DNA of 64,000 nt, from assembly GCA_020002185.1 (NCBI GenBank), contig CM034534.1, forward strand, positions 18,041,087-18,105,086. The letters run 5' to 3'. The translations under genes were made by a program, and so were the position numbers. Positions 26,437 to 63,925 of this stretch are shown here, one piece after another. A model generated the notes under the pieces. It was not told the origin of the DNA. It worked only from the letters and a program-made list of their open reading frames with translations, and did no database searches. This DNA is from Paraescarpia echinospica. Taxonomy: Eukaryota > Annelida > Polychaeta > Sabellida > Siboglinidae. Position 1 is the first letter of the stretch. Each line of letters begins with the position of its first letter.

Positions 26437-26565
26437 TGCAAGGTGGCTGTCCAGGGTGTATTATCGAGGTGACCACGAAGGGAGGTCAGACTGTAGTTTG
26501 TTTGTTTTTGTTTATTATTGTAGTTTCGCAATACTCGGTTGACATTTGATGTTATGTTCTCAGGC

Positions 26566-29791: not shown

Positions 29792-31647
29792 ACCTTCTCT
29801 CTCAGTAGGCTTTTCGTCTTTACGACTCCTTGATGCCCACGATGTGCAAAATCGCCGGCACGCTCGCGGAGTGAAAAAGGAAGGACGATGCGTGTTTGTC
29901 GTAGGACCATGCCTTGGTGTACAGCTAGTTCGTCCTTGAGCTTCAGGTAGGGTGACACTTCCTCATCGGTCCATTGACCGCTCTCTATGGCGTGCAGTAG
30001 CTTCTGCATGACGCTGTCTTGTAGATATTGTAGTTTCACCTCCTGCAGCGTCATCGCCTCGGGTATGCTGTTAGTACAAATGTAGTTGACCGTATTTTCT
30101 ACAGCATCAGTCGCCGGTGGTTCAACAGGGTGGCGACTCAGGTAATCCGCCGGGTTCTCGTCATCTCGTCCTGGACGGTAGAGGAGTGAGTAGTCGTACG
30201 GCGAGAGTCTCAATCGCCATCGCTCCACTCGTGCAGACGCTTGTCTCTGACTGGCGAATATTCCTAGCAGCGGCTTGTGATCGGTGATGATCTCGAATTC
30301 CGATCCATAGACGTAGAGGTGAAAGTGTTCTGCACCCCACACGACAGCCAACATTTCTCGTTCAGTTTGCGAGTATACCTGTTCGACTGAAAATAGCGCT
30401 CGGCTGGCGTAACTAATGACCTTGTCGTCTTGACACAATATCGCGCCGATGCCGACAGGACTTGCATCGACCAGCACTTTTGACGGTTTCGTCGCATCAA
30501 AGTACTGTACAGTGCACACACTGGCTAGCTTCGCCTTCAAGTTGTCGAGTGCCTGTTGATGTTTGCTTTTCCATTCCCATGGAATGTCTGTGTGTGTCAG
30601 TCCTCGGAGTGATGCAGTGACATCCGAGTAGCCAGGAATGAATCGCGACACGTATTGTGCCATTCCAAACAACGAACGTACTTCACTGGCATTCTGCGGT
30701 GCAGCTGCATTGACGATTGCTGACGTCTTCTTTGGATCCGCCTCGATGCCAGTCGCGCTGAAGATGTGTCCATAGAAGCACACTTGTTTTTGAGAGAATA
30801 AACACTTCTCTCTGTTGAGTTTGACGTTCTTGTTTTTCAGTCTCTCAAGCACAGCTTTCAAGCATGTGTCGTGTTCGCGTTGTGATTTTCCGTAGACGAT
30901 GATGTCATCAGACATGTTCTTGCATCCAACTAAACCAGACAACAATTCGCTGAGTGAGTTTTGGAATATTTCAGATGCTGCGTTAATTCCAAACATCAGT
31001 CGTTTGTATTGCCATAGTCCCACGTTTGTTGTGAATGTGGTTATGTATCTGCTTTCAGGACTCAATTCTAGCTGATTATACGCAGAGTTCAGGTCCTGCG
31101 TACTGAAGACAGATGAGCCATTCAAATCGGTGATTAGCTCGTCGATTGTTGGCATGACATGTTTGATGTGTTGTACAGCTTTATTTGCTTCTCTCATGTC
31201 TATGCAGATTCTGACTTCACCCGATTTCTTAGGCACCACGACTATTGGGCTGACCCATGGTGTTGGTCCGTTTACCCTCTCGATGATGTCTAGCTTTTCT
31301 AGTCTATCAAGTTCTTTTTCAACGTCACGTCGGATGTGAAAAGGAATCCGTCTGTGCTGTTGCTGTTTTGGAGTGACGCTCTGGTCGATGTGTAATTTCA
31401 CTTCCACGCCATCCACTTTTCCAACACCATCAAAGAGATCTGCGAACTGATCTACGATTTGTGGTTGGAACGTGCCATTTGTTGTGACGTTCTGTCCTGT
31501 TGCGACGTTTTGAGCAATGTGGAGGATTCCCAAGTCCTGTGCAGTTTGGCAGCCTAGCAGATTGCCTGTCGTGCCCTCCACCACATGAATGCTTGTGTCG
31601 ATGACCGTCGAGCGAAACTTCACTTTCGTGATAAGCACGCCGATCAC
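29542..31647 (-). pseudogene. Gypsy pol: reverse transcriptase, RNase H, integrase zinc finger
   Basis: An open frame of 701 codons. RT: RICIDMREANKAV, LNSAYNQLEL and the catalytic box as MSDDIIVYG. RNase H: VLVDASPVGIGAIL, TEREMLAVVWGAEHF and ITDHKPLLGIF. Integrase HHCC finger: HRGHQG with KACLPCQA. The first integrase Asp is in DFIGPFPS; the frame is then lost near 29640. The N-terminal end overlaps the protease tail after a frame change at about 31650-31665. Confidence 0.92.
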
Positions 31648-31662
31648 AGGTAGTGGTGTTTG

Positions 31663-32470
31663 TTAGCCATATGGATACACTTTCGTCGTAGGCTGTTTGA
31701 ATAACATACTGCTGGATTGTCTGATCATTTTGAATGTGCTGTTGTCAGTTATATTAACTGACGCCCCGGAATCTACAGTCATTTTGATAGGATTTCCTTC
31801 AATCTGCACTGTGCATGTGGGCAATGCGTTGTGCTTGTTTGTTTGTTTGATTGCAGAAAAAACATAATCATTGTCAGATTCAGCTGCCAGACTTTTTGGA
31901 CTGACTGCGTTGGTGCTTGTGACAGTGTTAGTTTGCATTCGATTGCCGTATTTAGATCTGCAGATTTTCTCGAAATGTCCATTCTTATGGCAAAAATTGC
32001 ACGTTTTGCCTTTTGCAGCGCATTGTTTAGTCGGCGGATGCGGATAATTGTCCCCACAGTAACGACATATTGTAGATGTCTGTCTACTCGCAGTGCTCAT
32101 TGGTGTTGCGTTATTGAACCGCTTGTTTCGAGTTGCCTTTTTCTTGAAGCGTTTGCTGGCGATGTTGACTTCAGCTTCTCTTGACGTTTCTCCTGATGTT
32201 TCCATCCCTGACGCTTGTTTCTCAGACAACTCCATCGCTCTGCCTTCATCCAACATTTCAGTGAGCGATATAGTGGCATCACGCAACACACGGCGTCGTA
32301 GTCTTGACGACGTACAATTCTGCACAATCTGTGTCTTAATTTCACGATCAGTGTCAGTGAATTCGCAGGTTGCAGCAAGACGTCTTAAACGCATATGGTA
32401 CGTGTCGAGTGATTCACCGATTTCTTGTTTTTCTTTTCAGAATTGGTACATTTCGTACTCAATGTTCGTC
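31663..32470 (-). pseudogene. Gypsy gag C-terminal part and protease
   Basis: The frame open from 32394 contains two cysteine clusters (CRYCGDNYPHPP...C and the CCHC knuckle CNFCHKNGHFEKIC) and an aspartic-protease motif VDSGASVNIT. Upstream, past a TGA near 32438, typical gag wording continues (EYEMYQF, ESLDTYHMRLRRLA). The start is lost. Confidence 0.88.
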
Positions 32471-37483: not shown

Positions 37484-38448
37484 GCAGAAATGCAACAAGA
37501 AAGAATCATTAGGCAAAATCATGAACAGAGAAGTGCAAGAGTCATCATTAGCGCAAGGAACCACCAGAGGGTATGCAATTTCAAATACATTTAAGTCTTG
37601 ATTTGTTACCAAAGGTGGCAATAATTGTTAAGTAATGTAGACTTCATGCAAGATTTTGGGTGCAGCTACATATAAAGCTTGATTGCCAATGCTATAAGGA
37701 AACAAAAGACAACTTTTTGGAGAGCTGCACCTAAAAAAGTTAAAGGGAAAGAAAAGGCAAATGTTTGTCTGAATTACATGAGTTTCTGAGTATCATAAAC
37801 TAGACTAGTATTCCCAGTTTAGTGACCAGCGAACTGGAAATAATAGGCACTCGTGGCGACAAGCTTTCTATCAAAATGGCGCTGTCCATACAACTTATAC
37901 TCTGTGTCTTCAACAAGATTAATCCAATAAAGTACAGGCATTATATTCTTGATTGTAGCTGCAAATGGTTAGTTTTAAGTAACTATGTTAAATGCATAGG
38001 ACCAAATGATTACCTTTCGTTTTCACTTTTCAAATTAAGGTTGATGGACATTGTTATGAAACAGATGAACTGCGATGTCTGGGGAAATGTGAAAAACACA
38101 TGAGACTAATCAAATAGGATGGCTGTGGTGTAGAATGGACACAGTATGTAATAGTGCCATCTGAAATTTTATTTTTGAGGGGCTTAGCCAGAGAAGCATC
38201 TGCCCATCTTCAATCCTGGAGGATGACTGGCCAAGAGGGGTAATTACAATTGATAAGACTTATGGAATTTCGAGGGGCCAGCTGGTCAGTAGATTAAATA
38301 ACTGTTCCAAGTCTACAGGTCCACATCAATGACTATCATTGTCATAACTGGTAGGAAATCAAATCAAATGGATCAGTATTAATTAACAAAATAGCTCAAA
38401 GAACACTGGTTTGTCATTTAAAAAAACTAAACAGGCCAATAATGGCTG

Positions 38449-39261
38449 TGAGTGGCGTGAATGGCTTCCATGCAAGCAGTTCATGTGAGTGGCGTGAATG
38501 GCTTCCATGCAAGCCGTTCATGTGAGTGACTTGAATGGCTTCCATGCAAGCCGTTCATGTGAGTGGCATGGATGGCTTCCATGCAAGCAGTTCATGTGAG
38601 TGGCGTGAATGGCTTCCACGCAAGCAGTTCATGTGAGTGGCGTGAATGGCTTCCATGCAAGCCGTTCATGTGAGTGACTTGAATGGCTTCCATGCAAGCC
38701 GTTCATGTGAGTGGCGTGAATGGCTTCCATGCAAGCCGTTCATGTGAGTGGCGTGAATGGCTTCCATGCAAGCCGTTCATGTGAGTGGCGTGAATGGCTT
38801 CCATGCAAGCCGTTCATGTGAGTGGCGTGAATGGCTTCCATGCAAGCCGTTCATGTGAGTGGCGTGAATGGCTTCCACGCAAGCCGTTCATGTGAGTGAC
38901 GTGAATGGCTTCCATGCAAGCCGTTCATGTGAGTGACGTGAATGGCTTCCATGCAAGCCGTTCATGTGAGTGACGTGAATGGCTTCCATGCAAGCCGTTC
39001 ATGTGAGTGGCGTGAATGGCTTCCATGCAAGCCGTTCATGTGAGTGGCGTGAATGGCTTCCATGCAAGCCGTTCATGTGAGTGACGTGAATGGCTTCCAC
39101 GCAAGCCGTTCATGTGAGTGACGTGAATGGCTTCCATGCAAGCCGTTCATGTGAGTGACGTGAATGGCTTCCATGCAAGCTGTTCATGTGAGTGGCGTGA
39201 ATGGCTTCCATGCAAGCTGCTCATGTGAGTGGCGTGAATGGCTTCCATGCAAGCCGTTCGC
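38449..39261. repeat. 37-bp minisatellite, about 22 copies
   Basis: Unit: gtgagtggcgtgaatggctt, then ccatgcaagccgttcat. Few variants (gacttg, gacgtg, cacgc, gcagtt). Each + strand unit carries GTGAGT, a donor-like hexamer, but the FAXC-like gene is read from the other strand. Confidence 0.97.
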
Positions 39262-45420: not shown

Positions 45421-45830
45421 GCTAACGGCTATGCTAAATACCCTTTCAACTGCGGTTGATGAGGCTGGAATGCTGAAATGGTGAGGGACCAACTGAGCCA
45501 GAGTTGGATAATTGTTGCGTTGACCCTTCCTGAACTGCAGTGGGTCACTGACGATCTGTACATGGCTGACTGAGATATTCGTTCACCTCTACAATCAGCA
45601 ATCTGTTGATATTAGAAGTTTGCAATTTATATTTTCTGATCATAGACTACTGGTTGTTGAGAGGGTTAGCACATGTCCATATGAGAGGGTTAGTACATGT
45701 CCATATAACAGGCTCAAAATCCCGTTTGGACTTTTTAGCCAGGCTGCTGGCACGCGATTATACTAATGTAGGAGGCAGTCTGACTTAAGCCACTTTATAC
45801 TTCTACAGAGGAAGACTGGCAGCTCTTGTT
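45418..45830 (-). pseudogene. Second hAT transposase C-terminal remnant
   Basis: It closely matches 40360-40760. On the - strand it carries PTLAQLVPHHFSIPASS and the AVERVFSIA motif, cut off at about 45420 in the middle of the hATC domain. Its upstream end (in transposase direction) runs into the 27-bp array, whose reading frame is continuous with the transposase phrase CQSSSVEV. Confidence 0.82.
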
Positions 45831-46960
45831 CTTAGCAGTAAGCACTGTTGGTTGGTTCTTAGCAGTTAGCACTGTTGGTTGGTTCTTAGCAGTTAGCACT
45901 GTTGGTTGGTTCTTAGCAGTTAGCACTGTTGGTTGGTTCTTAGCAGTTAGCACTGTTGGTTGGTTCTTAGTAGGTAGCATTGTTGGTAGGTTTTTAGCAG
46001 TTAGCACTGTTGGTTGGTTCTTAGCAGTTAGCACTGTTGGTTGGTTCTTAGCAGTTAGCACTGTTGGCTGGTTCTTAGCAGTTAGCACTGTTGGTTGGTT
46101 CTTAGCAGTTAGCACTGTTGGTTGGTTCTTAGCAGTTAGCACTGTTGGTTGGTTCTTAGCAGTTAGCACTGTTGGTTGGTTCTTAGTAGGTAGCACTGTT
46201 GGTTGGTTTTTAGCAGTTAGCACTGTTGGTTGGTTCTTAGCATTTAGCACTGTTGGTTGGTTCTTAGCAGTTAGCACTGTTGGCTGATTCTTAGCAGTTA
46301 GCACTGTTGGTTGGTTCTTAGCAGTTAGCACTGTTGGTTGGTTCTTAGCAGTTAGCAATGTTGGTTGGTTCTTAGCAGTTAGCACTGTTGGTTGGTTCTT
46401 AGTAGGTAGCATTGTTGGTAGGTTTTTAGCAGTTAGCACTGTTGGTTGGTTCTTAGCAGTTAGCACTGTTGGTTGGTTCTTAGCAGTTAGCACTGTTGGC
46501 TGGTTCTTAGCAGTTAGCACTGTTGGTTGGTTCTTAGCAGTTAGCACTGTTGGTTGGTTCTTAGCAGTTAGCACTGTTGGTTGGTTCTTAGTAGGTAGCA
46601 CTGTTGGTTGGTTTTTAGCAGTTAGCACTGTTGGTTGGTTCTTAGCAGTTAGCACTGTTGGTTGGTTCTTAGCAGTTAGCACTGTTGGCTGGTTCTTAGC
46701 AGTTAGCACTGTTGGTTGGTTCTTAGCAGTTAGCACTGTTGGCTGGTTCTTAGCAGTTAGCACTGTTGGTTGGTTCTTAGCAGTTAGCAATGTTGGTTGG
46801 TTCTTAGCAGTTAGCACTGTTGGTTGGTTCTTAGCAGTTAGCAATGTTGGTTGGTTCTTAGCAGTTAGCACTGTTGGCTGGTTCTTAGCAGTTAGCAATG
46901 TTGGTTGGTTCTTAGCAGTTAGCACTGTTGGTTGGTTCTTAACAGTTAGCACATTGGTTG
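45827..46960 (-). repeat. 27-bp minisatellite, about 42 copies, derived from hAT transposase
   Basis: Unit (+): ttcttagcagttagcactgt, then tggttgg. On the - strand it is the nine-residue phrase KNQPTVLTA, open for 385 codons and ending in KNKSCQSSSVEV. A single-copy version, WPTVLIAKNKNCQSSSVEV, occurs in the related hAT element at about 40695-40755. Unit variants (taggtagcattg, gcaatg, ggctgg) recur in order, suggesting block duplication of several hundred bp. Confidence 0.95.
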
Positions 46961-47143
46961 GAGTTTATCAATTTCGACTACAAGCACCACTTCCCATTCA
47001 TACAATATGTTGTTATAATAACAGATAATAATGGATAATGTTGTTATACAGAGACCAGTCTGCCTGTCTTCAAGACTGGCAGGTGACTGGTAAGACGGGT
47101 AGCTACAACTGATAAGACTGGTGGAATTTAGAGGGAGCCAGCG

Positions 47144-47256
47144 GGCCACTCACTCACTCACTCACTCACTCACTCACTCACTCACTCACTCACTCACTCA
47201 CTCACTCACTCACTCACTCACTCACTCACTCACTCACTCACTCCCTCACTCACTCA
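47144..47256. repeat. (CTCA)n microsatellite
   Basis: About 28 tandem tetranucleotides with two ctcc interruptions near the end. Confidence 0.98.
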
Positions 47257-47369
47257 ATCGTCTTCTTCTTATTTTATCAGTGACTTTACACATTCCACTG
47301 TGTAGTTTTATGTTTGTTAGATGCTGTTGCCAGTCAATGTTAAATGCGACTCAAAGCATTCTTGTATAA

Positions 47370-49533
47370 AACCGTCTAGTTATTTGTCAAGTTTTTTCGT
47401 CATTGTCCATGTTTCGCATCCATAGAGTAGCACAGACTCTACTGTTGCAATAAATAGTCGCTGCTTGATTTTGCGTGGGAGTGTAGATTTCCATGTTACC
47501 GGTAGGTTTAGTTGGCTAAGAGCTCTCCATGCCATCATTGCCTTCCTGGTTTTGATGTCTTTGTCAGTTGTGCAGACCCAGGAACCAAGGTATTTGTAGT
47601 CATAAACCTTTTCTAAAACAGCTCCTTCCCTGGCAACGATGCTGGTGTTTCCTAGTTGGTTGAATGAGATATATTTTGTTTGTCCAGGATTGATCTTTAA
47701 ACCAATCCTTGCACATGATGTTTCCACTCGTGTTAGAAGCTCCTGTGCCTGATTGATCACTTCTGACAGTAGCGCAATATCATCGGCAAATTCGAAATCG
47801 CCACAGTGCATAGTCAAAGACTATCACAAAGAGGTATGGCGCCAGCGTGTCACCCTGTAGCACTTCCGCCATTATATCAAAAAGCTCAGTTTCTCCATCG
47901 GGTGATTGTACTTTGGCACGTATGTTCCTGTACATGTTGGAAATTGATGTTACTAGCTCTCTGGGGACACAATAGGCTTCAAGAATCTTCATCATCTTGC
48001 CACGATGAACCGTATCAAATGCTATTTGGAAGTCTACGAATGTCATAATTGCAGGAAGATGCTTTGCTCTAATTCTTCTTCTCAGGGTTAATATATGAAC
48101 TACTGTTGTCCTCCCTGTCCAGAATCCATTCTGATTGTCTCTTAGGTGGTGGTCAATTTCAGGACGTATTCTGTTCAATATCATCTTGTTGATTGTCTTT
48201 GCCACAATGTGGCAACAGACCCCTGTAATTCCCTGCCATGCTTAAATCGCCATTCTTAGGTATTGGAATAATGTTCAGAACTGTCCACTGTAGCTGTATT
48301 TTCCCTCCAATCAAAGCTTTGTTGCAAAACTTTAGTATGATACTGTCCAGATCGCAGTGTTTTATCACTTCAGGTGGTATACCATCATCCCCACAGCTCT
48401 TTCCATCATTCAGGGATTCCTTGGCCTTCTCATACTCGTCTCTTTCAAAAGGTTCTTCCTTGATGTTCATATTTATGATTACAGGTTGGATCTCTTCATC
48501 CTCATCTTCTATGTCTGGTGGACTGCCTAGTAGTTTGTGGAAGTGATCGTACCAGTTTTCCACCTTTTGTTCTGCAGTGTTGCCCTTTAGTTGTCCTTTA
48601 CGAGCTGTCTTTCTACCATTTATCTGGTTTATAAGCTTTCAGCTCTGTGGCATTTTTTACTTTAGCAATGTTGCTGCACAATTCTTCCTCCTGCAAAATG
48701 TTATAGGTTGTCTCCATGTTCTTCTTGGCCTGCTCATATCTCACTCTGTTGTCAGCTACAGTGTTTTGATGGTAGACCCTATAGGGCTCTTTCACTTTCT
48801 CTCTGGTTGATGTTACTCGTGGATCATCTGAGTACATTTTCTTTTTCGGTTTCTTACTGACAGGAATAATTTTCTCTGTCGCAGCTCTATTAGCTGAAAT
48901 GAAACACTCATATCTATCGGTCCGTTTCTGTTTCATCTCTCATTTCCAGAATCTGAAATCTGTTCCATACTTCACATGAGTACTGTTTTTGCAAGCCTTG
49001 CTTAGTGCATTTCAGTCATACTTCACTTTGCTTGGTGATGACTTTTTCGTACGTACACTAAGTCGTATTGTAGCTGTGACAATGCGATGATCAGATCCGA
49101 CACTTGCAAAGGTACTGTGTGGTTCACAATATTCATCATGCTGTTTCTCCATTTTTTGTTGACCAGGATATAATCAAGCTGTCGTTTTCCTGTTGGTCCA
49201 TAAACGTCCAGCGCTTTCCATTTCTCTTGCGGTATCTGGTGTTTGTGACCTCAATATTTTTCTCAGTGATAAGATCAATAAGGAATTCCCATTACGGTTT
49301 GTATTGTTATCATAAGGGTCTGTATGGGTAAATTTGGCATCCTCTGGTCCAAGTCGAGCGTTAAAGTCGCCTACAACTAGCAACATGTTGTGCACTGGTA
49401 CCGATTCGATCGCTCTTCTCAAGTCGTTGTAGTGGTCCTCTACGCTAGCTACTTCAGCAGAGTTGGTCGGACAATACGTGACGATAACTGTTGTAGCAGG
49501 ATTGCCGCTGAAGATGACAATCAGCATTCATTT
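47370..49533 (-). mobile_element. APE-type LINE, broken, joined to the 70-bp satellite
   Basis: Read on the - strand: C-terminal part of an AP-like endonuclease (VVGDFNARLGPED, NSLLILS), a linker region, RT (SCGDDGIPPEVIK, NIIPIPKNGD, NGFWTGRTTVVHI, TFVDFQIAFDTVHRG, LQGDTLAPYLF, catalytic FADDIALLS) and the post-RT part YLGSWV, LLYGCETWTM. Several frame changes and stops divide it into at least five frames. The endonuclease N-terminal half is absent: the sequence passes straight into the satellite at about 49533. The clade (RTE-like?) is not settled. Confidence 0.93.
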
Positions 49534-49534
49534 A

Positions 49535-52500
49535 CTATGTGTTGTAATATTCTTTAGACTCCCATGTCCCTTGTGTTGAGCAGAATGCCTACTCCTTCCT
49601 CTGCTGTGTGTTGTAATGTTCTCTAGGGCTCCCATGTCCCTTGTGTTGAGCAGAATGCCTACTCCTTCCTCTGCTGTGTGTTGTAATGTTCTCTAGGGCT
49701 CCCATGCCCTTTGTGTTGAGCAGAATGCCACTCCTCCCTCTGCTGTGTGTTGTAATGTTCTCTAGGGCTCCCGTGCCTCTTGTGTTGAGCACAATGCCTA
49801 CTCCTCCCTCTGCTGTGTGTTGTAATGTTCTCTAGGGCTCCCACGCTCCTTGTGTTGAGCAGACTGCCTACTCCTCCCTCTGCTGTGTGTTGTAGTGTTC
49901 TCTAGGACTCCCACGCCCCTTGTGTTGAGCAGACTGCCTACTCCTCCCTCTGCTGTGTGCTGTAATGTTCTCTAGGGCTCCCACGCCCCTTATGTTGAAC
50001 AGAATGCCTACTCCTCCCTCTGCTGTGTGTTGTAATGTTCTCTAGGGCTCCCACGCCCGTTGTGTTGAGCAGAATGCCTAATCCTCCCTATGCTGTGTGT
50101 TGTAATGTTCTCTAGGGCTCCCATACCACTTGTGTTGAGCAGAATGCCTACTCCTCCCTCTGCTGTGTGTTGCAATGTTCTCTAGGGCTCCCATGCCCCT
50201 TGTGTTGAGCAGAATGTCTACTCCTCCCTCTGCTGTATGTTGTAATGTTCTCTAGGGCTCCCATGCCCCTTGTGTTGAGCAGAATGCTACTCCTCCCTCT
50301 GCTGTGTGTTGTAATGTTCTCTAGGGCTCCCATGCCCCTTGTGTTGAGCAGAATGCCCACTTCTCCCTCTGCTGAGTGTTGTAATGTCTAGGGCTCCCAC
50401 GCCCCTTGTGTTGAGCAGAATGCCTACTCCTCCCTCTGCTGTATGTTGTAATGTTCTCTAGGGCTCCCATGCCCCTTGTGTTGCGCAGAATGCACACAAC
50501 TCCCTCTGCTGTGTGTTGTAATGTTCTCTAGGGCTCCCATGCCCCTTGCGTTGAGCAGAATGCCTACTCCTCCCTCTGCTGTGTGTTGTAATGTTCTCTA
50601 GGGCTCCCATGTCCCTTGTGTTGAGCAGAATGCCTACTCCTCCCTCTGCTGTGTGTTGTAATGTTCTCTAGGGCTCCCATGTCCCTTGTGTTGAGCAGAA
50701 TGCCTACTCCTCCCTCTGTTGTGTGTTGTAATGTTCACTAGTGCTCCCGTGCCCCTTGTGTTGAGCAGAATGCCCACTCCTCCCTCTGCTGTGTGTCGTA
50801 ATGTTCATTAGGGCTCCCGTGCCACTTGTGTTGAGCAGAATGCCTACTCCTTCCTCTGCTGTGTGTTGTAATGTTCTCTAGGGCTCCCACGCCCCTTGTG
50901 TTGAGCAGAATGCCTACTCCTCCCTCTGCTGTATGTTGTAATGTTCTCTAGGGCTCCCATGCCCCTTGTGTTGCGCAGAATGCCCACAACTCCCTCTGCT
51001 GTGTGTTGTAATGTTCTCTAGGGCTCCCATGCCCCTTGTGTTGAGCAGAATGCCTACTCCTCCCTCTGCTGTGTGTTGTAATGTTCTCTAGGGCTCCCAT
51101 GTCCCTTGTGTTGAGCAGAATGCCTACTCCTCCCTCTGCTGTGTGTTGTAATGTTCTCTAGGGCTCCCATGTCCCTTGTGTTGAGCAGAATGCCTACTCC
51201 TCCCTCTGCTGTGCGCTGTAATGTTCTCTAGGGCTCCCACGCCCCTTATTTTGAACAGAATGCCTACTCCTCCCTCTGCTGTGTGTTGTAATGTTCTCTA
51301 GGGCTCCCACGCCCCTTGTGTTGAGCAGAATGCCTACTCCTCCCTATGCTGTGTGTTGTAATGTTCTCTAGGGCTCCCATACCACTTTTGTTGAGCAGAA
51401 TGCCTACTCCTCCCTCTGCTGTGTGTTGTAATGTTCTCTAGGGCTCCCATGTCCCTTGTGTTGAGCAGAATGTCTACTCCTCCCTCTGCTGTGTGTTGTA
51501 ATGTTCTCTAGGGCTCCCATGCCCCTTGTGTTGAGCAGAATGCTACTCCTCCCTCTGCTGTGTGTTGTAATGTTCTCTAGGGCTCCCATGCCCCTTGTGT
51601 TGAGCAGAATGCGCACTTCTCCCTCTGCTGAGTGTTGTAATGTCTAGGGCTCCCACGCCTCTTGTGTTGAGCAGAATGCCTACTCCTCCCTCTGCTGTAT
51701 GTTGTAATGTTCTCTAGGGCTCCCATGCCCCTTGTGTTGCGCAGAATGCGCAACAACTCCCTCTGCTGTGTGTTGTAATGTTCTCTAGGGCTCCCATGCC
51801 CCTTGTGTTGAGCAGAATGCCTACTCCTCCCTCTGCTGTGTGTTGTAATGTTCTCTAGGGCTCCCATGTCCCTTGTCTTGAGCAGAATGCCTACTCCTTC
51901 CTCTGCTGTGTGTTGTAATGTTCTCTAGGGCTCCCATGTCCCTTGTGTTGAGCAGAATGCCTACTCCTTCCTCTGCTGTGTGTTGTAATGTTCTCTAGGG
52001 CTCCCATGCCCTTTGTGTTGAGCAGAATGCCTACTCCTCCCTCTGCTGTGTGTTGTAATGTTCTCTAGGGCTCCCGTGCCTCTTGTGTTGAGCACAATGC
52101 TAACTCCTCCCTCTGCTGTGTGTTGTAATGTTCTCTAGGGCTCCCACGCCCCTTGTGTTGAGCAGACTGCCTACTCCTCCTTCTGCTGTGTGTTGTAGTG
52201 TTCTCTAGGACTCCCACGCCCCTTGTGTTGAGCAGACTGCCTACTCCTCCCTCTGCTGTGTGTTGTAGTGTTCTCTAGGACTCCAACGCCCCTTGTGTTG
52301 AGCAGACTGCCTACTCCTCCCTCTGTTGTGTGCTGTAATGTTCTCTAGGGCTCCCACGCCCCCTATGTTGAACAGAATGCCTACTCCTCCCTCTGCTGTG
52401 TGTTGTAATGTTCTCTAGGGCTCCCACGCCCGTTGTGTTGAGCAGAATGCCTAATCCTCCCTATGCTGTGTGTTGTAATGTTCTCTAGGGCTCCCATACC

Positions 52501-55500
52501 ACTTGTGTTGAGCAGAATGCCTACTCCTCCCTCTGCTGTGTGTTGCAATGTTCTCTAGGGCTCCCATGCCCCTTGTGTTGAGCAGAATGTCTACTCCTCC
52601 CTCTGCTGTATGTTGTAATGTTCTCTAGGGCTCCCATGCCCCTTGTGTTGAGCAGAATGCTACTCCTCCCTCTGCTGTGTGTTGTAATGTTCTCTAGGGC
52701 TCCCATGCCCCTTGTGTTGAGCAGAATGCCCACTTCTCCCTCTGCTGAGTGTTGTAATGTCTAGGGCTCCCACGCCCCTTGTGTTGAGCAGAATGCCTAC
52801 TCCTCCCTCTGCTGTATGTTGTAATGTTCTCTAGGGCTCCCATGCCCCTTGTGTTGCGCAGAATGCCCACACCTCCCTCTGCTGTGTGTTGTAATGTTCT
52901 CTAGGGCTCCCATATCCCTTGTGTTGAGCAGAATGCCTACTCCTCCCTCTGCTGTGTGTTGTAATGTTCTCTAGGGCTCCCATGTCCCTTGTGTTGAGCA
53001 GAATGCCTACTCCTCCCTCTGCTGTGTGTTGTAATGTTCTCTAGGGCTCCCATGTCCCTTGTGTTGAGCAGAATGCCTACTCCTCCCTCTGCTGTGTGTT
53101 GTAATGTTCCCTAGGGCTCCCGTGCCCCTTGTGTTGAGGAGAATGCCCACTCTTCCCTCTGCTGTGTGTCGTAATGTTCTCTAGGGCTCCCATGCCCCTT
53201 GTGTTGAGCAGAATGCCTACTCCTTCCTCTGCTGTGTGTTGTAATGTTCTCTAGGGCTCCCACGCCCTTTGTGTTGAACAGAATGCCTACTCATCCCTCT
53301 GCTGTGTGTTGTAATGTTCTCTAGAGCTCCCGTGCCTCTTGTGTTGAGCACAATGCCTACTCCTCCCTCTGCTGTGAGTTGTAATGTTCTCTAGGGCTCC
53401 CACTCCCCTTGTGTTGAGCAGACTGCCTACTCCTCCCGCTGCTGTGTGTTGTAGTGTTCTCTAGGGCTCCCACGCCCCTTGTGTTGAGCAGACTGCCTAC
53501 TCCTCCCTCTGCTGTGCGCTGTAATGTTCTCTAGGGCTCCCACGCCCCTTATTTTGAACAGAATGCCTACTCCTCCCTCTGCTTTGTGTTGTAATGTTCT
53601 CTAGGGCTCCCACGCCCCTTGTGTTGAGCAGAATGCCTACTCCTCCCTATGCTGTGTGTTGTAATGTTCTCTAGGGCTCCCATACCACTTTTGTTGAGCA
53701 GAATGCCTACTCCTCCCTCTGCTGTGTGTTGTAATGTTCTCTAGGGCTCCCATGTCCCTTGTGTTGAGCAGAATGTCTACTCCTCCCTCTGCTGTGTGTT
53801 GTAATGTTCTCTAGGGCTCCCATGCCCCTTGTGTTGAGCAGAATGCTACTCCTCCCTCTGCTGTGTGTTGTAATGTTCTCTAGGGCTCCCATGCCCCTTG
53901 TGTTGAGCAGAATGCCCACTTCTCCCTCTGCTGAGTGTTGTAATGTCTAGGGCTCCCACGCCCCTTGTGTTGAGCAGAATGCCTACTCCTCCCTCTGCTG
54001 TATGTTGTAATGTTCTCTAGGGCTCCCATGCCCCTTGTGTTGCGCAGAATGCCCACAACTCCCTCTGCTGTGTGTTGTAATGTTCTCTAGGGCTCCCATG
54101 CCCCTTGCGTTGAGCAGAATGCCTACTCCTCCCTCTGCTGTGTGTTGTAATGTTCTCTAGGGCTCCCATGTCCCTTGTCTTGAGCAGAATGCCTACTCCT
54201 TCCTCTGCTGTGTGTTGTAATGTTCTCTAGGGCTCCCATGTCCCTTGTGTTGAGCAGAATGCCTACTCCTTCCTCTGCTGTGTGTTGTAATGTTCTCTAG
54301 GGCTCCCATGCCCTTTGTGTTGAGCAGAATGCATACTCCTCCCTCTGCTGTGTGTTGTAATGTTCTCTAGGGCTCCCGTGCCTCTTGTGTTGAGCACAAT
54401 GCTAACTCCTCCCTCTGCTGTGTGTTGTAATGTTCTCTAGGGCTCCCACGCCCCTTGTGTTGAGCAGACTGCCTACTCCTCCTTCTGCTGTGTGTTGTAG
54501 TGTTCTCTAGGACTCCCACGCCCCTTGTGTTGAGCAGACTGCCTACTCCTCCCTCTGCTGTGTGTTGTAGTGTTCTCTAGGACTCCAACGCCCCTTGTGT
54601 TGAGCAGACTGCCTACTCCTCCCTCTGTTGTGTGCTGTAATGTTCTCTAGGGCTCCCACGCCCCCTATGTTGAACAGAATGCCTACTCCTCCCTCTGCTG
54701 TGTGTTGTAATGTTCTCTAGGGCTCCCACGCCCGTTGTGTTGAGCAGAATGCCTAATCCTCCCTATGCTGTGTGTTGTAATGTTCTCTAGGGCTCCCATA
54801 CCACTTGTGTTGAGCAGAATGCCTACTCCTCCCTCTGCTGTGTGTTGCAATGTTCTCTAGGGCTCCCATGCCCCTTGTGTTGAGCAGAATGTCTACTCCT
54901 CCCTCTGCTGTATGTTGTAATGTTCTCTAGGGCTCCCATGCCCCTTGTGTTGAGCAGAATGCTACTCCTCCCTCTGCTGTGTGTTGTAATGTTCTCTAGG
55001 GCTCCCATGCCCCTTGTGTTGAGCAGAATGCCCACTTCTCCCTCTGCTGAGTGTTGTAATGTCTAGGGCTCCCACGCCCCTTGTGTTGAGCAGAATGCCT
55101 ACTCCTCCCTCTGCTGTATGTTGTAATGTTCTCTAGGGCTCCCATGCCCCTTGTGTTGCGCAGAATGCCCACACCTCCCTCTGCTGTGTGTTGTAATGTT
55201 CTCTAGGGCTCCCATATCCCTTGTGTTGAGCAGAATGCCTACTCCTCCCTCTGCTGTGTGTTGTAATGTTCTCTAGGGCTCCCATGTCCCTTGTGTTGAG
55301 CAGAATGCCTACTCCTCCCTCTGCTGTGTGTTGTAATGTTCTCTAGGGCTCCCATGTCCCTTGTGTTGAGCAGAATGCCTACTCCTCCCTCTGCTGTGTG
55401 TTGTAATGTTCCCTAGGGCTCCCGTGCCCCTTGTGTTGAGGAGAATGCCCACTCTTCCCTCTGCTGTGTGTCGTAATGTTCTCTAGGGCTCCCATGCCCC

Positions 55501-58500
55501 TTGTGTTGAGCAGAATGCCTACTCCTTCCTCTGCTGTGTGTTGTAATGTTCTCTAGGGCTCCCACGCCCTTTGTGTTGAACAGAATGCCTACTCATCCCT
55601 CTGCTGTGTGTTGTAATGTTCTCTAGAGCTCCCGTGCCTCTTGTGTTGAGCACAATGCCTACTCCTCCCTCTGCTGTGAGTTGTAATGTTCTCTAGGGCT
55701 CCCACTCCCCTTGTGTTGAGCAGACTGCCTACTCCTCCCGCTGCTGTGTGTTGTAGTGTTCTCTAGGGCTCCCACGCCCCTTGTGTTGAGCAGACTGCCT
55801 ACTCCTCCCTCTGCTGTGCGCTGTAATGTTCTCTAGGGCTCCCACGCCCCTTATTTTGAACAGAATGCCTACTCCTCCCTCTGCTTTGTGTTGTAATGTT
55901 CTCTAGGGCTCCCACGCCCCTTGTGTTGAGCAGAATGCCTACTCCTCCCTATGCTGTGTGTTGTAATGTTCTCTAGGGCTCCCATACCACTTTTGTTGAG
56001 CAGAATGCCTACTCCTCCCTCTGCTGTGTGTTGTAATGTTCTCTAGGGCTCCCATGTCCCTTGTGTTGAGCAGAATGTCTACTCCTCCCTCTGCTGTGTG
56101 TTGTAATGTTCTCTAGGGCTCCCATGCCCCTTGTGTTGAGCAGAATGCTACTCCTCCCTCTGCTGTGTGTTGTAATGTTCTCTAGGGCTCCCATGCCCCT
56201 TGTGTTGAGCAGAATGCCCACTTCTCCCTCTGCTGAGTGTTGTAATGTCTAGGGCTCCCACGCCCCTTGTGTTGAGCAGAATGCCTACTCCTCCCTCTGC
56301 TGTATGTTGTAATGTTCTCTAGGGCTCCCATTCCCCTTGTGTTGCGCAGAATGCGCAACAACTCCCTCTGCTGTGTGTTGTAATGTTCTCTAGGGCTCCC
56401 ATGCCCCTTGTGTTGAGCAGAATGCCTACTCCTCCCTCTGCTGTGTGTTGTAATGTTCTCTAGGGCTCCCATGTCCCTTGTCTTGAGCAGAATGCCTACT
56501 CCTTCCTCTGCTGTGTGTTGTAATGTTCTCTAGGGCTCCCATGTCCCTTGTGTTGAGCAGAATGCCTACTCCTTCCTCTGCTGTGTGTTGTAATGTTCTC
56601 TAGGGCTCCCATGCCCTTTGTGTTGAGCAGAATGCATACTCCTCCCTCTGCTGTGTGTTGTAATGTTCTCTAGGGCTCCCGTGCCTCTTGTGTTGAGCAC
56701 AATGCTAACTCCTCCCTCTGCTGTGTGTTGTAATGTTCTCTAGGGCTCCCACGCCCCTTGTGTTGAGCAGACTGCCTACTCCTCCTTCTGCTGTGTGTTG
56801 TAGTGTTCTCTAGGACTCCCACGCCCCTTGTGTTGAGCAGACTGCCTACTCCTCCCTCTGCTGTGTGTTGTAGTGTTCTCTAGGACTCCAACGCCCCTTG
56901 TGTTGAGCAGACTGCCTACTCCTCCCTCTGTTGTGTGCTGTAATGTTCTCTAGGGCTCCCACGCCCCCTATGTTGAACAGAATGCCTACTCCTCCCTCTG
57001 CTGTGTGTTGTAATGTTCTCTAGGGCTCCCACGCCCGTTGTGTTGAGCAGAATGCCTAATCCTCCCTATGCTGTGTGTTGTAATGTTCTCTAGGGCTCCC
57101 ATACCACTTGTGTTGAGCAGAATGCCTACTCCTCCCTCTGCTGTGTGTTGCAATGTTCTCTAGGGCTCCCATGCCCCTTGTGTTGAGCAGAATGTCTACT
57201 CCTCCCTCTGCTGTATGTTGTAATGTTCTCTAGGGCTCCCATGCCCCTTGTGTTGAGCAGAATGCTACTCCTCCCTCTGCTGTGTGTTGTAATGTTCTCT
57301 AGGGCTCCCATGCCCCTTGTGTTGAGCAGAATGCCCACTTCTCCCTCTGCTGAGTGTTGTAATGTCTAGGGCTCCCACGCCCCTTGTGTTGAGCAGAATG
57401 CCTACTCCTCCCTCTGCTGTATGTTGTAATGTTCTCTAGGGCTCCCATGCCCCTTGTGTTGCGCAGAATGCCCACACCTCCCTCTGCTGTGTGTTGTAAT
57501 GTTCTCTAGGGCTCCCATATCCCTTGTGTTGAGCAGAATGCCTACTCCTCCCTCTGCTGTGTGTTGTAATGTTCTCTAGGGCTCCCATGTCCCTTGTGTT
57601 GAGCAGAATGCCTACTCCTCCCTCTGCTGTGTGTTGTAATGTTCTCTAGGGCTCCCATGTCCCTTGTGTTGAGCAGAATGCCTACTCCTCCCTCTGCTGT
57701 GTGTTGTAATGTTCCCTAGGGCTCCCGTGCCCCTTGTGTTGAGCAGAATGCCCACTCTTCCCTCTGCTGTGTGTCGTAATGTTCTCTAGGGCTCCCATGC
57801 CCCTTGTGTTGAGCAGAATGCCTACTCCTTCCTCTGCTGTGTGTTGTAATGTTCTCTAGGGCTCCCACGCCCTTTGTGTTGAACAGAATGCCTACTCATC
57901 CCTCTGCTGTGTGTTGTAATGTTCTCTAGAGCTCCCGTGCCTCTTGTGTTGAGCACAATGCCTACTCCTCCCTCTGCTGTGAGTTGTAATGTTCTCTAGG
58001 GCTCCCACTCCCCTTGTGTTGAGCAGACTGCCTACTCCTCCCGCTGCTGTGTGTTGTAGTGTTCTCTAGGGCTCCCACGCCCCTTGTGTTGAGCAGACTG
58101 CCTACTCCTCCCTCTGCTGTGCGCTGTAATGTTCTCTAGGGCTCCCACGCCCCTTATTTTGAACAGAATGCCTACTCCTCCCTCTGCTTTGTGTTGTAAT
58201 GTTCTCTAGGGCTCCCACGCCCCTTGTGTTGAGCAGAATGCCTACTCCTCCCTATGCTGTGTGTTGTAATGTTCTCTAGGGCTCCCATACCACTTTTGTT
58301 GAGCAGAATGCCTACTCCTCCCTCTGCTGTGTGTTGTAATGTTCTCTAGGGCTCCCATGTCCCTTGTGTTGAGCAGAATGTCTACTCCTCCCTCTGCTGT
58401 GTGTTGTAATGTTCTCTAGGGCTCCCATGCCCCTTGTGTTGAGCAGAATGCTACTCCTCCCTCTGCTGTGTGTTGTAATGTTCTCTAGGGCTCCCATGCC

Positions 58501-59826
58501 CCTTGTGTTGAGCAGAATGCCCACTTCTCCCTCTGCTGAGTGTTGTAATGTCTAGGGCTCCCACGCCCCTTGTGTTGAGCAGAATGCCTACTCCTCCCTC
58601 TGCTGTATGTTGTAATGTTCTCTAGGGCTCCCATGCCCCTTGTGTTGCGCAGAATGCCCACAACTCCCTCTGCTGTGTGTTGTAATGTTCTCTAGGGCTC
58701 CCATGCCCCTTGTGTTGAGCAGAATGCCTACTCCTCCCTCTGCTGTGTGTTGTAATGTTCTCTAGGGCTCCCATGTCCCTTGTGTTGAGCAGAATGCCTA
58801 CTCCTCCCTCTGCTGTGTGTTGTAATGTTCTCTAGGGCTCCCATGTCCCTTGTGTTGAGCAGAATGCCTACTCCTCCCTCTGCTGTGTGTTGTAATGTTC
58901 TCTAGGGCTCCCGTGCCCCTTGTGTTGAGCAGAATGCCTACTCCTCCCTCTGCTGTGTGTCGTAATGTTCTCTAGGGCTCCCATGCCCCTTGTGTTGAGC
59001 AGAATGCCTACTCCTTCCCTCTGCTGTGTGTTGTAATGTTCTCTAGGGCTCCCACGCCCTTTGTGTTGAGCAGAATGCCTACTCCTCCCTCTGCTGTGTG
59101 TTGTAATGTTCTCTAGGGCTCCCATGCCCCTTGTGTTGCGCAGAATGCCCACACCTCCCTCTGCTGTGTGTTGTAATGTTCTCTAGGGCTCCCATGCCCC
59201 TTGTAGTGCTTGAGCAGAATGCCTACTCCTCCTCTGCTGTGTGTTGTAATGTCTGTGTGTTGTAATGTTCTCTAGGGCTCCCATGTCCCTTGTGTTGAGC
59301 AGAATGCCTACTCCTCCCTGCTGTGTGTTGTAATGTTCTCTAGGGCTCCCATGTCCCTTGTGTTGAGCAGAATGCCTACTCCTCCCTCTGCTGTGTGTTG
59401 TAATGTTCTCTAGGGCTCCCATGTCCCTTGTGTTGAGCAGAATGCCTACTCCTCTCTCTGTTGTGTGTTGTAATGTTCTCTAGGGCTCCCGTGCCCCTTG
59501 TGTTGAGCAGAATGCCCACTCCTCCCTCTGCTGTGTGTCGTAATGTTCTCTAGGACTCCCATGCCCCTTGTGTTGAGCAGAATGCCCACTCCTCCCTCTG
59601 CTTTGTGTTGTAATGTTCTCTAGGGCTCCCGTGCCCCTTGTGTTGAGCAGAATGACCACTCCTCCCTCTGCTATGTGTCGTAATGTTCTCTAGGGCTCCC
59701 GTGCCCCTTGTGTTGAGCAGAATGACCACTCCTCCCTCTGCTGTGTGTCGTAATGTTCTCTAGGGCTCCCGTGCCCCTTGTGTTGAGCAGAATGCCCACT
59801 CCCCCCTCTGCTCTGTCGTAATGTTC
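49535..59826. repeat. 70-bp satellite array, about 147 monomers, with higher-order repeats
   Basis: Monomer: gctcccatgccccttgtgtt, then gagcagaatgcctactcctc, then cctctgctgtgtgttgtaat, then gttctctagg (70 bp; for example tctagggctc at 49761 and 49831). The short 70-aa frames on the - strand come from three monomers (210 bp). Marker monomers (one lacking 1 bp at gctactcc, one lacking 3 bp at aatgtctagg, one extended at gcgcaacaact) recur at fixed spacing, giving a higher-order unit of 2302-2303 bp made of two related halves of 1186 and about 1117 bp. On the - strand the monomer reads GVGILLNTRGMGALENITTH, like the LINE endonuclease beside it. Confidence 0.97.
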
Positions 59827-59849
59827 GTAATTCAACTGTAACGGCCGGC

Positions 59850-61010
59850 GTGGCCGCTGTCGGGGCACCTGCTGTGGCTGCTCCAAATATCGAAGACCCT
59901 CGGTCTCAGAATCACATCTATATGAACTTGCCCAGTGGCTCGCCTCCACCTGCATTGGAAATGGAAACCAATCAGGTCGATAACTGGAAGTTGTGGAAAC
60001 AAATGTGGAAAAACTATCTAATCGTGTCTGGACTCGACACTAAGCCAGACAGATATGTGACGGCACTTCTTCTACACTGTATTGGGAAGCCGCACTACGC
60101 GTTTTCAATGGTATGGATTTGACAGAAGAAGAACGGGTCAAGCCTGCTGAAATCATCAGAAAATTTGACGAACATATCTTGGGCGAAGTAAAAGAATTCT
60201 TTGAAAGGTATAAGTTTAACACCCGAAATCAGGAAAGAGTCGTTTGAACAATTCTACTCAGTGTTGAAAAATCTAGCAAAAACCTGTGGATTTTGCAATT
60301 GTATGCGAGACAAACTGATTGTTGACAGGATAATCCTCGGTGTAAGGAGTGACAAAATTCGCAGCAAACTCATTTCACAATCGCAACTTGATCTACCCAG
60401 AGCAGTAGACATATGCCGGTGCATGCAAGAGGCTGAAGAACAATGCAAAATTCTGAATAAAACAGAAGCAGTGAACCGGGTCGACACCAGATACAGACGC
60501 TATATTGCCAAGTCGACATTCGGTGGAAGAAAATCTGCTAGTCAGCGAAAATGCAAATTCTGCTGCAAAACGCACCCCATAAAGAAAGAACTCTGCCCTG
60601 CATGGGGCAAGACGTGTGATGCATGTAGGGGTCGAAACCATTTCAGAGGCTCCGTGCATTGCCCTAAGACTGTTCACAGTGTACAAGATGGGTTAGACTC
60701 GGATAGCTCCGGTGCTAGATTTGGCGATATCGGGTGCGTCACTGTCGATGTGCACGCACTCTCCTCACAAGATGGTCCCATTTTGTGCAACATGCTGGTC
60801 GAAAAGCAGTCGGTGAAGATGCAGGTTGACTGTGGTTCAACTGTCAACATACTGCCCAAGAAGTACGTGAAGGAGAAAGATATCCGCCCAGAACCAATCA
60901 TTCTGAAGACGTGGAACAATGTGAAGACTGAAGCTCTCGGCAAGTGCCGAGCTAAAACTGTAAATCCTGCTACAGGAGACAAGTTCAATGGACTATGTCA
61001 TAGTGGATGA
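59850..61010 (+). pseudogene. Gypsy gag and protease, two frame changes
   Basis: Three frames cover gag: WKLWKQMWKNYLIVSGLDTK (first), a second frame from about 60115 (PAEIIRKFDEHILGEVKEFF) and a third from 60201 (EQFYSVLKNLAKTC). Cysteine clusters CKFCCKTHPIKKELCPAWGK and TCDACRGRNHFRGSVHC follow. The protease motif reads VDCGSTVNIL, with Cys where most have Thr or Ser after the catalytic Asp. Confidence 0.88.
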
Positions 61011-62204
61011 TGACAAACTGACACCACTACTCAGCCGTAAAGCTGCTGAATGCATGAAGCTCATCACGGTGAACTACGAGAACTTTGAAACTGTATCTTC
61101 AGTCTCCAGCTGTAGAGTTGCTCAAACTCCATGCACTGAAGACTATCCTGAAGTGTTCGACGGTAAACTTGGCTCGCTTCCTGGTTCGTCTCACCCTGGA
61201 ACAAAATGCTGGAACAAAATGCTGAACCGGTTGTGAGACCACCTCGTACCCTACCAGAATCACTGAACAATATCGTGAAAGATGAGCTGGACCGACTAGA
61301 ACACACTGGTGTCATAGTCAAAGTGGACCAACCCACTGATTGGGTGAACCAAATGTCTGTAGCCAAGAAACATTCTGGAGCTCTCAGGATCTGCATTGAT
61401 CCTAGACCTCTCAACCTAGCCCTAAAGCGTGAACACTACAAGCTTCCTGTGCTGGACGACATTCTACCGAAGCTTGTGAATTCCAAGAAATTTGCTGTGT
61501 GTGACTTGCAACAAGGATATCTACTCTGCGAACTGGATGAAGAATCTAGCCTACTGACTACTATCGCAACACCGTTTGGGCAGTATCGTTGGCGACGACT
61601 ACCTTTCGGCTTGAAAGTCAGCAGTGAAATTTTCCAAAAGCGTCTGCAAGAAGCACTGGAAGGGTTAGAGAATGTTCACTGTGTTGCTGATGATATTATC
61701 ATCCATGGATACGATGACTCTGATCTCTGTGTCAAGATCCAGAAGCTGCTCCAAAGATGCAAGAAACATGGGATCAAACTGAACCGTGAGAAATGTCGCT
61801 TCAATGAGAATGAAAGCCAGTTCTTAGGCCATGTTGTCACAGCTGATGGTCTGAAACCTGACCCATCCAAGGTCGAAGCTGTTCTCAAGATGAAGAGTCC
61901 GTGTGACAGGGAAGCTGTGGAGAGGCTAAGAGGTACAGTAACTTACCTGGCGAGATACGTACCCAAGTTGACCGATGTATTCCGTCCCATTGCTGCTCTT
62001 GTACAACGAGATGTTGCCTGGATGTGGGGAGATGCTCAGAAGAAAGCTTTCACAACACTGAAACAATCTTGGCTGAGGCACCCACTCTGGCTTACTTTGA
62101 CACGAGTAAGCAACTGGTCATTCAGTGTGATGCTAGCAACTATGACCTGGGATGTGCACTACTTCAGGAAGGAAGACCAATTGCTTACGCCAGTCATGCT
62201 TTGA
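60988..62204 (+). pseudogene. Gypsy protease tail and reverse transcriptase
   Basis: A frame from 60988 carries the pre-RT segment (DYPEVFDGKLGSLPG). A second, from 61206, carries RT: RICIDPRPLNLALKREHYKL, DLQQGYLLCELDEES, FGLKVSSEIFQ and the catalytic box VADDIIIHG, then FLGHVVTADGLKPDP. The frame is lost in early RNase H near 62050-62100. Confidence 0.92.
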
Positions 62205-63925
62205 CTGACACAGAGACCAGATATGCCATTATAGAGTAAGAGATGCTGGCCGTCGTCTTTGCTCTTGAGAAGTGGCATCAGTTCACCTATGGTCGCCCCA
62301 TCCTTGTCTACAGTGACCCCAGGCCACTAGAGGCAATAACAAAGAAACCTCTAGACAGAGCACCCAAGCGTCTACAGGGCATGCTCCTACGTGCACTTGC
62401 GTATGACATTGATGTCAAGTACTTGGAAGGCAAGAAGATGTCTCTCGCTGACACACTGTCACTTGCCTTCCTGCCAGCTAGAGAGGAACAACCGACCACT
62501 GAGTTCGAAGCTATCCACGCTGTGAACTATCTATCCATGAGAGAAGATGTTGTCCAGGACATTCGTAATGCCACCGAGCAAGATGCCACTCTACAAGTGC
62601 TGACAGCTGTCCTGCAACATAGCTGGCCCGAGAAACCAGATGTGCCGCCACCTGCTGTGCCTTACTACCACTTCAGAGATGAGTTGGCCGTCACTGATGG
62701 ATTGGTGTTCCGCGGCGAAAGACTTGTGATTCCACAATCCATGAGATCACAAATTAAGAAGGATGTTCACCTAGGCCACGTTGGCATTGAAGGATGCCTA
62801 AGAAGAGCAAGGGAGTTGGTGTTCTGGCCTGGCATGAATGCAGAAATCAAAGAGTACATCCAAACGTGTGAAGCCTGTCGTGAGTTCGAACGTTCTCAGA
62901 CTAAGGAAACTCTGATGAGCCATGATGTGCCGGACCGTCCATGGCAGAAGGTCGGTGTCGACCTGTTCTCTTACCAAGGAAAGGACTACCTAGTCACCAC
63001 TGACTACAGATCAAACTTCTGGGAAATAGACTATCTACCAACCACTGGCTCCAAGGCAGTAATCACAAAGCTCAAAGCTCACTTTGCAAGGATGGGAATT
63101 CCGGACACTGTAGTTACTGACAATGGTCCACAACTGGTGTCAGACGAGTTTGCTCATTTCAGTAAGAAATGGGGATTCGAACATGTGACGACATCTCCAC
63201 ACCACAGTCGCTCAAACGGCAAGGTGGAATCATCGGTGAAAGCTGCAAAGAAGATGATCAAGAAAGCACAATGCGCTGGTGATGACCAATATTTAGCACT
63301 GCTGAATATCCGCAACACCCCAACTCAAGGAATGGAGAGTAGTCCTGCACAGAGGCTACTAGGTAGGCGGACGAAAACAATTCTTCCAACAGCTCAAAGT
63401 CTTCTGGAGTCGCGGTCGTTTGTGCAGCAACATGAAACAGATATGCTGAAAAGGACACAACGCCGTCAAGCCAAGTACTATGACAAATCTGCTACAGATC
63501 TCCCACATCTGCATCAAGGTGATACCGTCCGAATGAAGCCGTTCAAGCTTGGAGTCAAGTCATGGAAGAAAGCGAAGGTGGTGAGACGACTGGATAAAAG
63601 GTCCTATGAAGTTGAAGATAGTGAGGGAACAGTGTACAGGCGCAACCGTGTACACCTAAGAAGAACACACGAAACACCACCTCATGTGTTGGTTGAGGAG
63701 TCCATGGATATCCCATCCCAAGATGATCCTCTAATCACTCCAGTTGACCCAATTCGGGCCAACACACCAGTTGAAATTCAGCCGAACGCACCGGTTGAAC
63801 AACAACACCAGAGTGACCAGACAGAACCACACTCTCCGGTACGTCCAACGACACCCAGGAAGTCCGAGAGAATCAACAAGTCCAAGCTACCCAGCAAATA
63901 CAAGGACTATGTTGTATCTAAATGA
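62024..63925 (+). pseudogene. Gypsy RNase H and integrase with one in-frame stop
   Basis: RNase H: VIQCDASNYDLGCALLQ, then a TAA at 62237-62239 directly before EMLAVVFALEKWH, so a single stop splits the domain. The following 560-codon frame has the HHCC finger (HLGHVG, CEACREF), the integrase DD-E residues (GVDLFSY, VVTDNGPQ, NGKVESS) and a C-terminal SH3-like part (GDTVRMKP, KAKVVRRLDKRSYEVE) and ends KYKDYVVSK. Confidence 0.92.

Follow-up and report, generated by a model that had tools for sequence, protein, structure and literature searches.

A long satellite array that runs directly into the remnant of a LINE raises the question of where the satellite came from and whether it was born at this very place. 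The window (C4:18041087-18105086; the whole stretch of 64,000 nucleotides of Paraescarpia echinospica DNA that was analysed) belongs to a 1.08-Gb assembly of 3111 contigs, which was the genome searched; the features of the locus are collected in Table 1. TRF reports a single array at 49538-59816, with a period of 70, 147 copies and 92% matches. The copies of its higher-order repeat are 99.5% identical and nested repeats of 1116/1186 bp are ~97% identical, so that we are dealing with the long, head-to-tail, homogenised array of a satellite, in which the nested higher-order repeats indicate stepwise duplication of segments. Exact 25- and 24-base monomer patterns have no match in viral and prokaryote collections, which says little for an animal repeat.

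Table 1. Features of the satellite locus in the window (positions are those of the window).
Feature	Position	Strand	Basis
(CACT)27 beside the LINE remnant	47147..47256	.	TRF; 4-bp unit shared with the (TGAG)n 3' tails of other copies
LINE remnant: C-terminal part of the endonuclease (EN), linker, reverse transcriptase (RT); frameshifts and stops	47253..49534	-	Pfam, EN profile, homology
Edge unit, runs unbroken into the LINE	49527..49601	-	EN profile, monomer comparison
70-bp satellite array, ~147 units, from EN codons around AAEGGVGILLNTRGMGALENITTHS	49535..59816	-	TRF, EN profile, shuffles, monomer decomposition
Higher-order repeat core, 2302-2303 bp = 33 monomers	51121..58680 (ends approximate)	-	self-comparison of the array
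Array end, ~540 bp with a near-identical counterpart in the array end at C13:6059929	59285..59826	-	pairwise comparison
Gypsy-type gag-pol abutting the array, in place of the N-terminal half of the LINE	59827..63925	+	frames, homology

Read on the minus strand, the monomer translates as (A)EGGVGILLNTRGMGALENITTHS, and the LINE translation picks up after the array with MLIVIFSGNPATTVIVTYCPTN. A search with the EN pieces returned 154 proteins (120 of them listed), the best-scoring match being 60% identical, and the matches include proteins annotated as 'craniofacial development protein 2-like' (Branchiostoma, Amphiura) and as 'AP1 endonuclease' (Paracentrotus). On an EN profile made from 51 related EN proteins, with the window sequence left out, the monomers match at approximately positions 104-130 and the adjoining LINE piece matches from position 133, beginning at its residue 2; thus, there is no gap between them. 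An array of consensus monomers scores 19.1 bits on this profile, a value reached by none of 2000 dinucleotide-preserving shuffles (best 3.3; 1943 of the shuffles reported any match at all), by which a chance resemblance of the monomer to EN was rejected. Since the first query for EN relatives held monomer residues, a second search was carried out with the downstream part only. Here 278 proteins passed, and among the 120 listed, 78 fit a simple motif; their GGVG-to-GNP spacing is exactly 31 residues, as in the window, in 74 cases and 32 in the other four. The remaining 42 listed proteins missed the motif, and among the ten of these whose starts were viewed, some have the block and some begin beyond it. 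The 70-bp satellite is a piece of the EN gene of the adjoining LINE, colinear with it to the residue. Both the derivation of the monomer from this gene and its amplification at the native place of the segment, as put forward in the initial annotation, are borne out, the former by the profile, the shuffles and the spacing in relatives and the latter by the colinearity on the profile and by the single-unit copies described below.

The native joint in the window reads ITTHS-K*-MLIVIF and falls at ~49527-49540. The edge unit carries several changes from the consensus in its LINE-side half and has 6 differences in all, against a mean of 3.0 per monomer. The joint is as seamless as it had been described, whereas the residues GVGILLNTRDMG, at first assigned to the LINE, fall in the last units of the array. 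The rest of the endonuclease is indeed missing, in that the window holds no match to the N-terminal part of EN.

The LINE remnant of the window matches Pfam RVT_1 with 5.1e-15, with the EN families below the cutoff. Homology of other copies to it starts at 47253; the (CACT)27 tract may be the 3' tail of the window copy itself, which lacks ~245 bp of its 3' end. The LINE copies are colinear with relatives of ~1015 aa, and in the relative P0121 both EN and RT are found above the cutoff, in one ORF. We take the element to be RTE-like, a label prompted by the 'craniofacial development protein 2-like' annotations and by the tail.

The LINE-array joint recurs many times in the genome (39 of 132 candidates scored). 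Around each of the 20 best-scoring LINE loci (L009-L028) we fetched 10 kb, and 19 of the 20 carry an array at the homologous EN position, the exception being L014 with one unit. In these 19 loci the array starts at the LINE base equivalent to window position 49535 (TRF within 0-40 bases), and EN N-terminal sequence lies beyond it in 18, the fetched stretch of L025 having ended before the far end. Thus, it is within its EN gene that this dispersed LINE carries the array. The number of units is 4 to ~40 in most of the 20 loci and exceeds 100 in L025 and in the window, so that the site is fixed and the length varies among dispersed copies, as in an internal VNTR. A census with a probe made of N-terminal sequence, one unit and 60 bp (40 of 89 candidates scored) divided 40 N-terminal copies into 31 with an array, called where the match ends at the unit and including a few segmental duplicates, eight with a single unit and one that stops earlier.

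With the array alone as query (38 of 73 candidates scored), ten array loci new to the earlier lists were added. In nine of them the array is bordered by the N-terminal part of EN on one side and by the LINE on the other, with the N-terminal joint exact in eight and 66 bases short in one, and with the opposite joint exact in four and replaced by a deletion into the LINE in five. For the tenth array (C1, 68.66 Mb), the N-terminal joint was located at 68661544-68661900, and no LINE was seen in the 800 bp read past the other end of the array. Three arrays ~15 kb apart lie at C1:68661544-68704743, which suggests a segmental duplication of a LINE locus. Overall, dozens of LINE copies on many large contigs carry the array at one and the same EN position. 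Two observations that the initial annotation had named as counting against its view were not made: ten array-free LINE copies all carry the monomer-like segment, and no array without an adjoining LINE was found among those examined with the array-only query.

The unduplicated state of the segment is preserved in the same genome. Among 39 of 114 candidates scored with a probe that holds one unit between EN flanks, and therefore favours single-unit copies, there were ten copies whose match spans one unit; each of the ten can be aligned through this unit, and small indels occur in some of them. The native segment reads GGAG[CAGCAGAGGG...ACACA]CAGTAAACG, where the 70-bp unit opens with CAG and CAG follows again right after it. 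Direct repeats of 3 bp delimit the segment, GGAG[CAG]CAGAGGG...ACACA[CAG]TAAACG, which accounts for a unit length of 23 codons plus one base. The typed single-unit reference with short flanks is one open frame, while in arrays of 2-8 units translation runs into a stop codon within the second unit, directly behind it or within the third, which makes the whole protein impossible by ordinary decoding. The idea that the array might be coding was rejected on these stops, found for every n from 2 to 8, and is also opposed by the divergence of 319 distinct monomers at codon positions 1, 2 and 3 (0.043, 0.063 and 0.034, respectively), where the third is not the most variable. Monomers with a T-to-G change are termed S and those without it I; a two-unit copy, L038 (by match spacing), has the order I I and a three-unit copy, L039, the order S S I. 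Units numbering 1, 2, 3, 4 and up to ~147 thus coexist among the LINE copies.

The C-terminal sequences of 21 copies form a star tree, with terminal branches of 0.04-0.09, except for two identical pairs, and internal branches near zero. Their mean pairwise difference is 10.7%, each copy lies 4-8% from the consensus, and in this 620-base consensus the C-terminal frame is open. Homology between loci mostly ends at the same LINE ends, many copies carry TGAG-type tails at the common 3' end, and target-site duplications are clear in two of nine loci tested, L017 (10-11 bp) and L022 (9-10 bp), both of them array-bearing. Both flanks are common to L020 and L021, and one flank is common to L018 and L026. 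Further flank matches, among L009, L017, L018, L019 and L026, between L010 and L015, between L012 and both L013 and L024, and between L011 and both L020 and L021, may represent other repeats. L020 and L021 (C7:13.06 and 13.08 Mb) are inverted, near-identical duplicates (99.5% over 9 kb), each a LINE with an array of seven full units.

The arrangement of monomer types within the arrays bears on when these arrays formed. Splitting 20 arrays and the L014 unit by wrap-around alignment yielded 546 full monomers, and the S variant occurs in 12 of these 20 arrays first decomposed. It is skewed to the EN N-terminal end (mean relative position 0.32; none of 20000 permutations was as low) and had the smallest p value of 30 variants tested for end bias, 9 of which have p < 0.05. 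When the types of the first and last readable units were entered by hand for each locus, S opened the array in 20 of 36 loci and closed it in 4 of 34 (Fisher p 1.3e-4). This count leaves out L021 and C7:14.993 (duplicates of L020 and C7:14.930), the last unit of L026 (C-terminal side shared with L025), and the first unit of C4:2.26 and the last of L048, where the variant base is neither T nor G; L052 was scored as I despite a deletion of this site in its final unit, L042 was entered as a separate first end, and the first unit of L026 was kept despite the flank shared with L018 (19 of 35 without L026). In the loci fetched after the pattern had been noticed, S is first in 12 of 19 and last in 3 of 16 (p 0.016), with a weaker bias in the last fetched set, where S stands at 4 of 8 readable starts (one duplicate pair counted twice). 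Single-unit copies have T at the variant site in eight of ten cases and a deletion in two, and never S. Because S is enriched at the same array end on different chromosomes, the simplest and most likely reading is that a short ordered array predates the dispersal. These end-specific types, together with the target-site duplications, support the view that array-bearing copies may themselves have been mobilised.

Thus, we propose that the EN segment was probably duplicated in tandem, that a short ordered array formed before the burst of the family and was retrotransposed with the LINE, and that the length then changed locus by locus. We infer the following order of events. In an RTE-like LINE, a 70-bp EN segment would have been duplicated in tandem, possibly by slippage or template switching at the CAG microhomology. 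Before the family burst, the resulting array would have been short, with S-type units at its 5' side and I-type units at its 3' side, and copies bearing it would have been retrotransposed to many sites. As two or more units break the frame and the full protein could not be made, such copies presumably depended on single-unit relatives that mobilised them in trans. When the genome was searched with a full-length relative from another organism (45 of 54694 candidates scored), no intact helper with a single unit came to light; the matches of the array-bearing family had stops or were fragments, and many open copies belonged to a different LINE family (~1042 residues, 32% identity to the full-length query). 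After insertion, each array would have changed length independently, with ends occasionally swapped between loci; the window copy would have grown to ~147 units and developed higher-order repeats, and the joining of its array end to a Gypsy element would have cost it the 5' half of the LINE. More tentatively, the LINE might be seen as the vehicle of a satellite made from its own EN gene, with arrays and single units in a ratio of ~4:1 among the scored N-terminal copies, that is dispersed in trans, expands, exchanges ends and seeds a genome-wide library.

The arrays could also be the product of recurrent birth, if the EN segment were a hotspot of expansion and most copies had been inserted with a single unit and expanded independently in place. 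The CAG...CAG boundaries common to arrays and single-unit copies and the existence of two- and three-unit copies agree with this, as does the single consensus of both classes, from which ten single-unit copies differ by 6.6% and 19 array copies by 5.6%; the consensus sequences of the two classes differ at 2 of 593 columns, with neither difference fixed, and this lack of separation is equally expected from expansion after insertion. Moreover, seven array loci of the tree set hold only I monomers, and sites 238/239 group three of these I-only arrays with two single-unit copies and with no S-bearing array, so that a second origin of arrays is possible. We nevertheless consider recurrent birth unlikely as the general explanation, since it would have to account for one T-to-G variant that is present in 12 of 20 arrays, far more often at the N-terminal than at the C-terminal end, and in none of the ten single-unit copies (eight with T, two without the site).

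Less probable still is that an array which arose once was copied into other LINEs by gene conversion or ectopic recombination. The EN flanks differ by the above 10.7% on average and form a star tree, and conversion tracts would therefore have to stop at the array nearly always. Exchange as such is nonetheless suggested at a few loci. The window array ends at 59816-59826, where a Gypsy element starts (no LTR-like direct repeat was seen from 59827 to ~66.9 kb); the array end at C13:6059929 meets its Gypsy element at the same point and shares the ~540 bp of array listed in Table 1. This joint was found in one other Gypsy copy, the one on C13 within another array of the family (39 of 299 candidates scored), and the Gypsy parts of the window and C13 agree at 96.8% over 2.0 kb, a similarity that further copies of the element reach as well. 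L026 (C4:70358900-70368899) likewise resembles a chimera of C13 and C4 loci, its C-terminal side comprising 1442 bases at the LINE-array joint identical to the copy of L025 (C13:6049600-6059599) and its other side the flank of a C4 neighbour. Both cases suggest either that array ends have been exchanged between chromosomes or that the assembly contains errors. An apparent array of 35 kb at C13 was dropped as a candidate, as a Gypsy element and an apparent assembly gap lie between its two ends.

Birth in the window copy only, as assumed in the initial annotation and suggested by the seamless array-LINE joint, is refuted by the dozens of other LINE copies with an array at this EN position and can hardly be upheld. 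Its account is therefore partly supported: amplification in place to 10 kb fits the later growth with higher-order repeats, whereas a birthplace in this copy is not supported. Capture of an older, unrelated satellite by the LINE, or a coding resemblance by chance, has next to no probability and is refuted by the shuffle control, by the same spacing of the segment in related LINEs of other organisms and by its presence once in single-unit copies.

Our preferred reading, of an EN segment duplicated before dispersal of the LINE, has partial parallels in other systems. The VNTR of SVA and the 5' monomers of mouse L1 are internal tandem units of variable number in non-LTR-related elements, located in non-coding parts of the element. 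Satellites derived from LINEs, including ORF2-derived ones, are on record (PMC9659126; PMC6947457), among them PROsat of Phodopus, Pvc 20 of the harbour seal, chicken HinfI from CR1 and the common cetacean satellite from L1 (PMC9659126). In these cases, too, a piece of a LINE has turned into a tandem satellite; compared with their description in passages of that review, the 70-bp EN unit is here still in its native place, and single- and few-unit stages are found within dozens of LINE copies. Helitrons and Helentrons with central tandem repeats and MITE-borne satellites (miDNA4, Xenopus) likewise represent dispersed transposons with an internal array capable of growth, as presented in passages of PMC9659126 and PMC12628747; however, their carriers are DNA transposons, in contrast to the present LINE, whose coding region contains the array and is disrupted by it. 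Short internal arrays of the Ogre LTR retrotransposon seed satellites in Pisum and Lathyrus, and these repeats are placed by the corresponding review passages in the 3' UTR or close to gag (PMC9659126), in contrast to the EN-coding segment of the present LINE. For some minisatellites, a further review traces the first step to slippage or to unequal crossing-over, with flanking repeats of 5-10 bp as the sites involved (PMC6947457); the repeat here has 3 bp. The open-access literature searched yielded LINE-derived satellites and no example of a dispersed LINE whose coding part holds an internal array; judged by these searches, the EN-coding place, the dozens of LINE carriers and the coexisting stages are new.

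How a satellite starts can rarely be observed, as homogenisation generally obscures the beginnings of an array. In the present LINE, one homologous site in dozens of similarly diverged copies is occupied by the unduplicated segment, by two or three units or by arrays of up to ~147 units with higher-order repeats. These coexisting stages permit direct tests of the first duplication, of the expansion rate and of the role of microhomology, as well as of the onset of higher-order repeats and of the exchange between chromosomes. They also bear on the scattering of satellite seeds by transposons, the seed in this case being a coding segment and not a UTR.

The window contains several further repeats and frames. 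A 54-bp tandem array at 3026-5344 (42 copies, TRF) has long stop-free frames on both strands, reaching 871 codons from stop to stop on the minus strand. A DDE_1 transposase frame (17964-19091, Pfam 2.3e-18) overlaps a 36-bp tandem repeat at 18775-18890 and is a further case of a transposon gene that contains repeats. Two minisatellites, one of 37 bp with 22 copies at 38447-39259 and one of 27 bp with 42 copies at 45828-46961, were also reported by TRF, the second lying near the LINE remnant. Frames on the minus strand at 28757-32436 resemble, by eye, a second Gypsy-type gag-pol, and an open frame at 26524-27624 with three C2H2 zinc-finger stretches is possibly a host gene.
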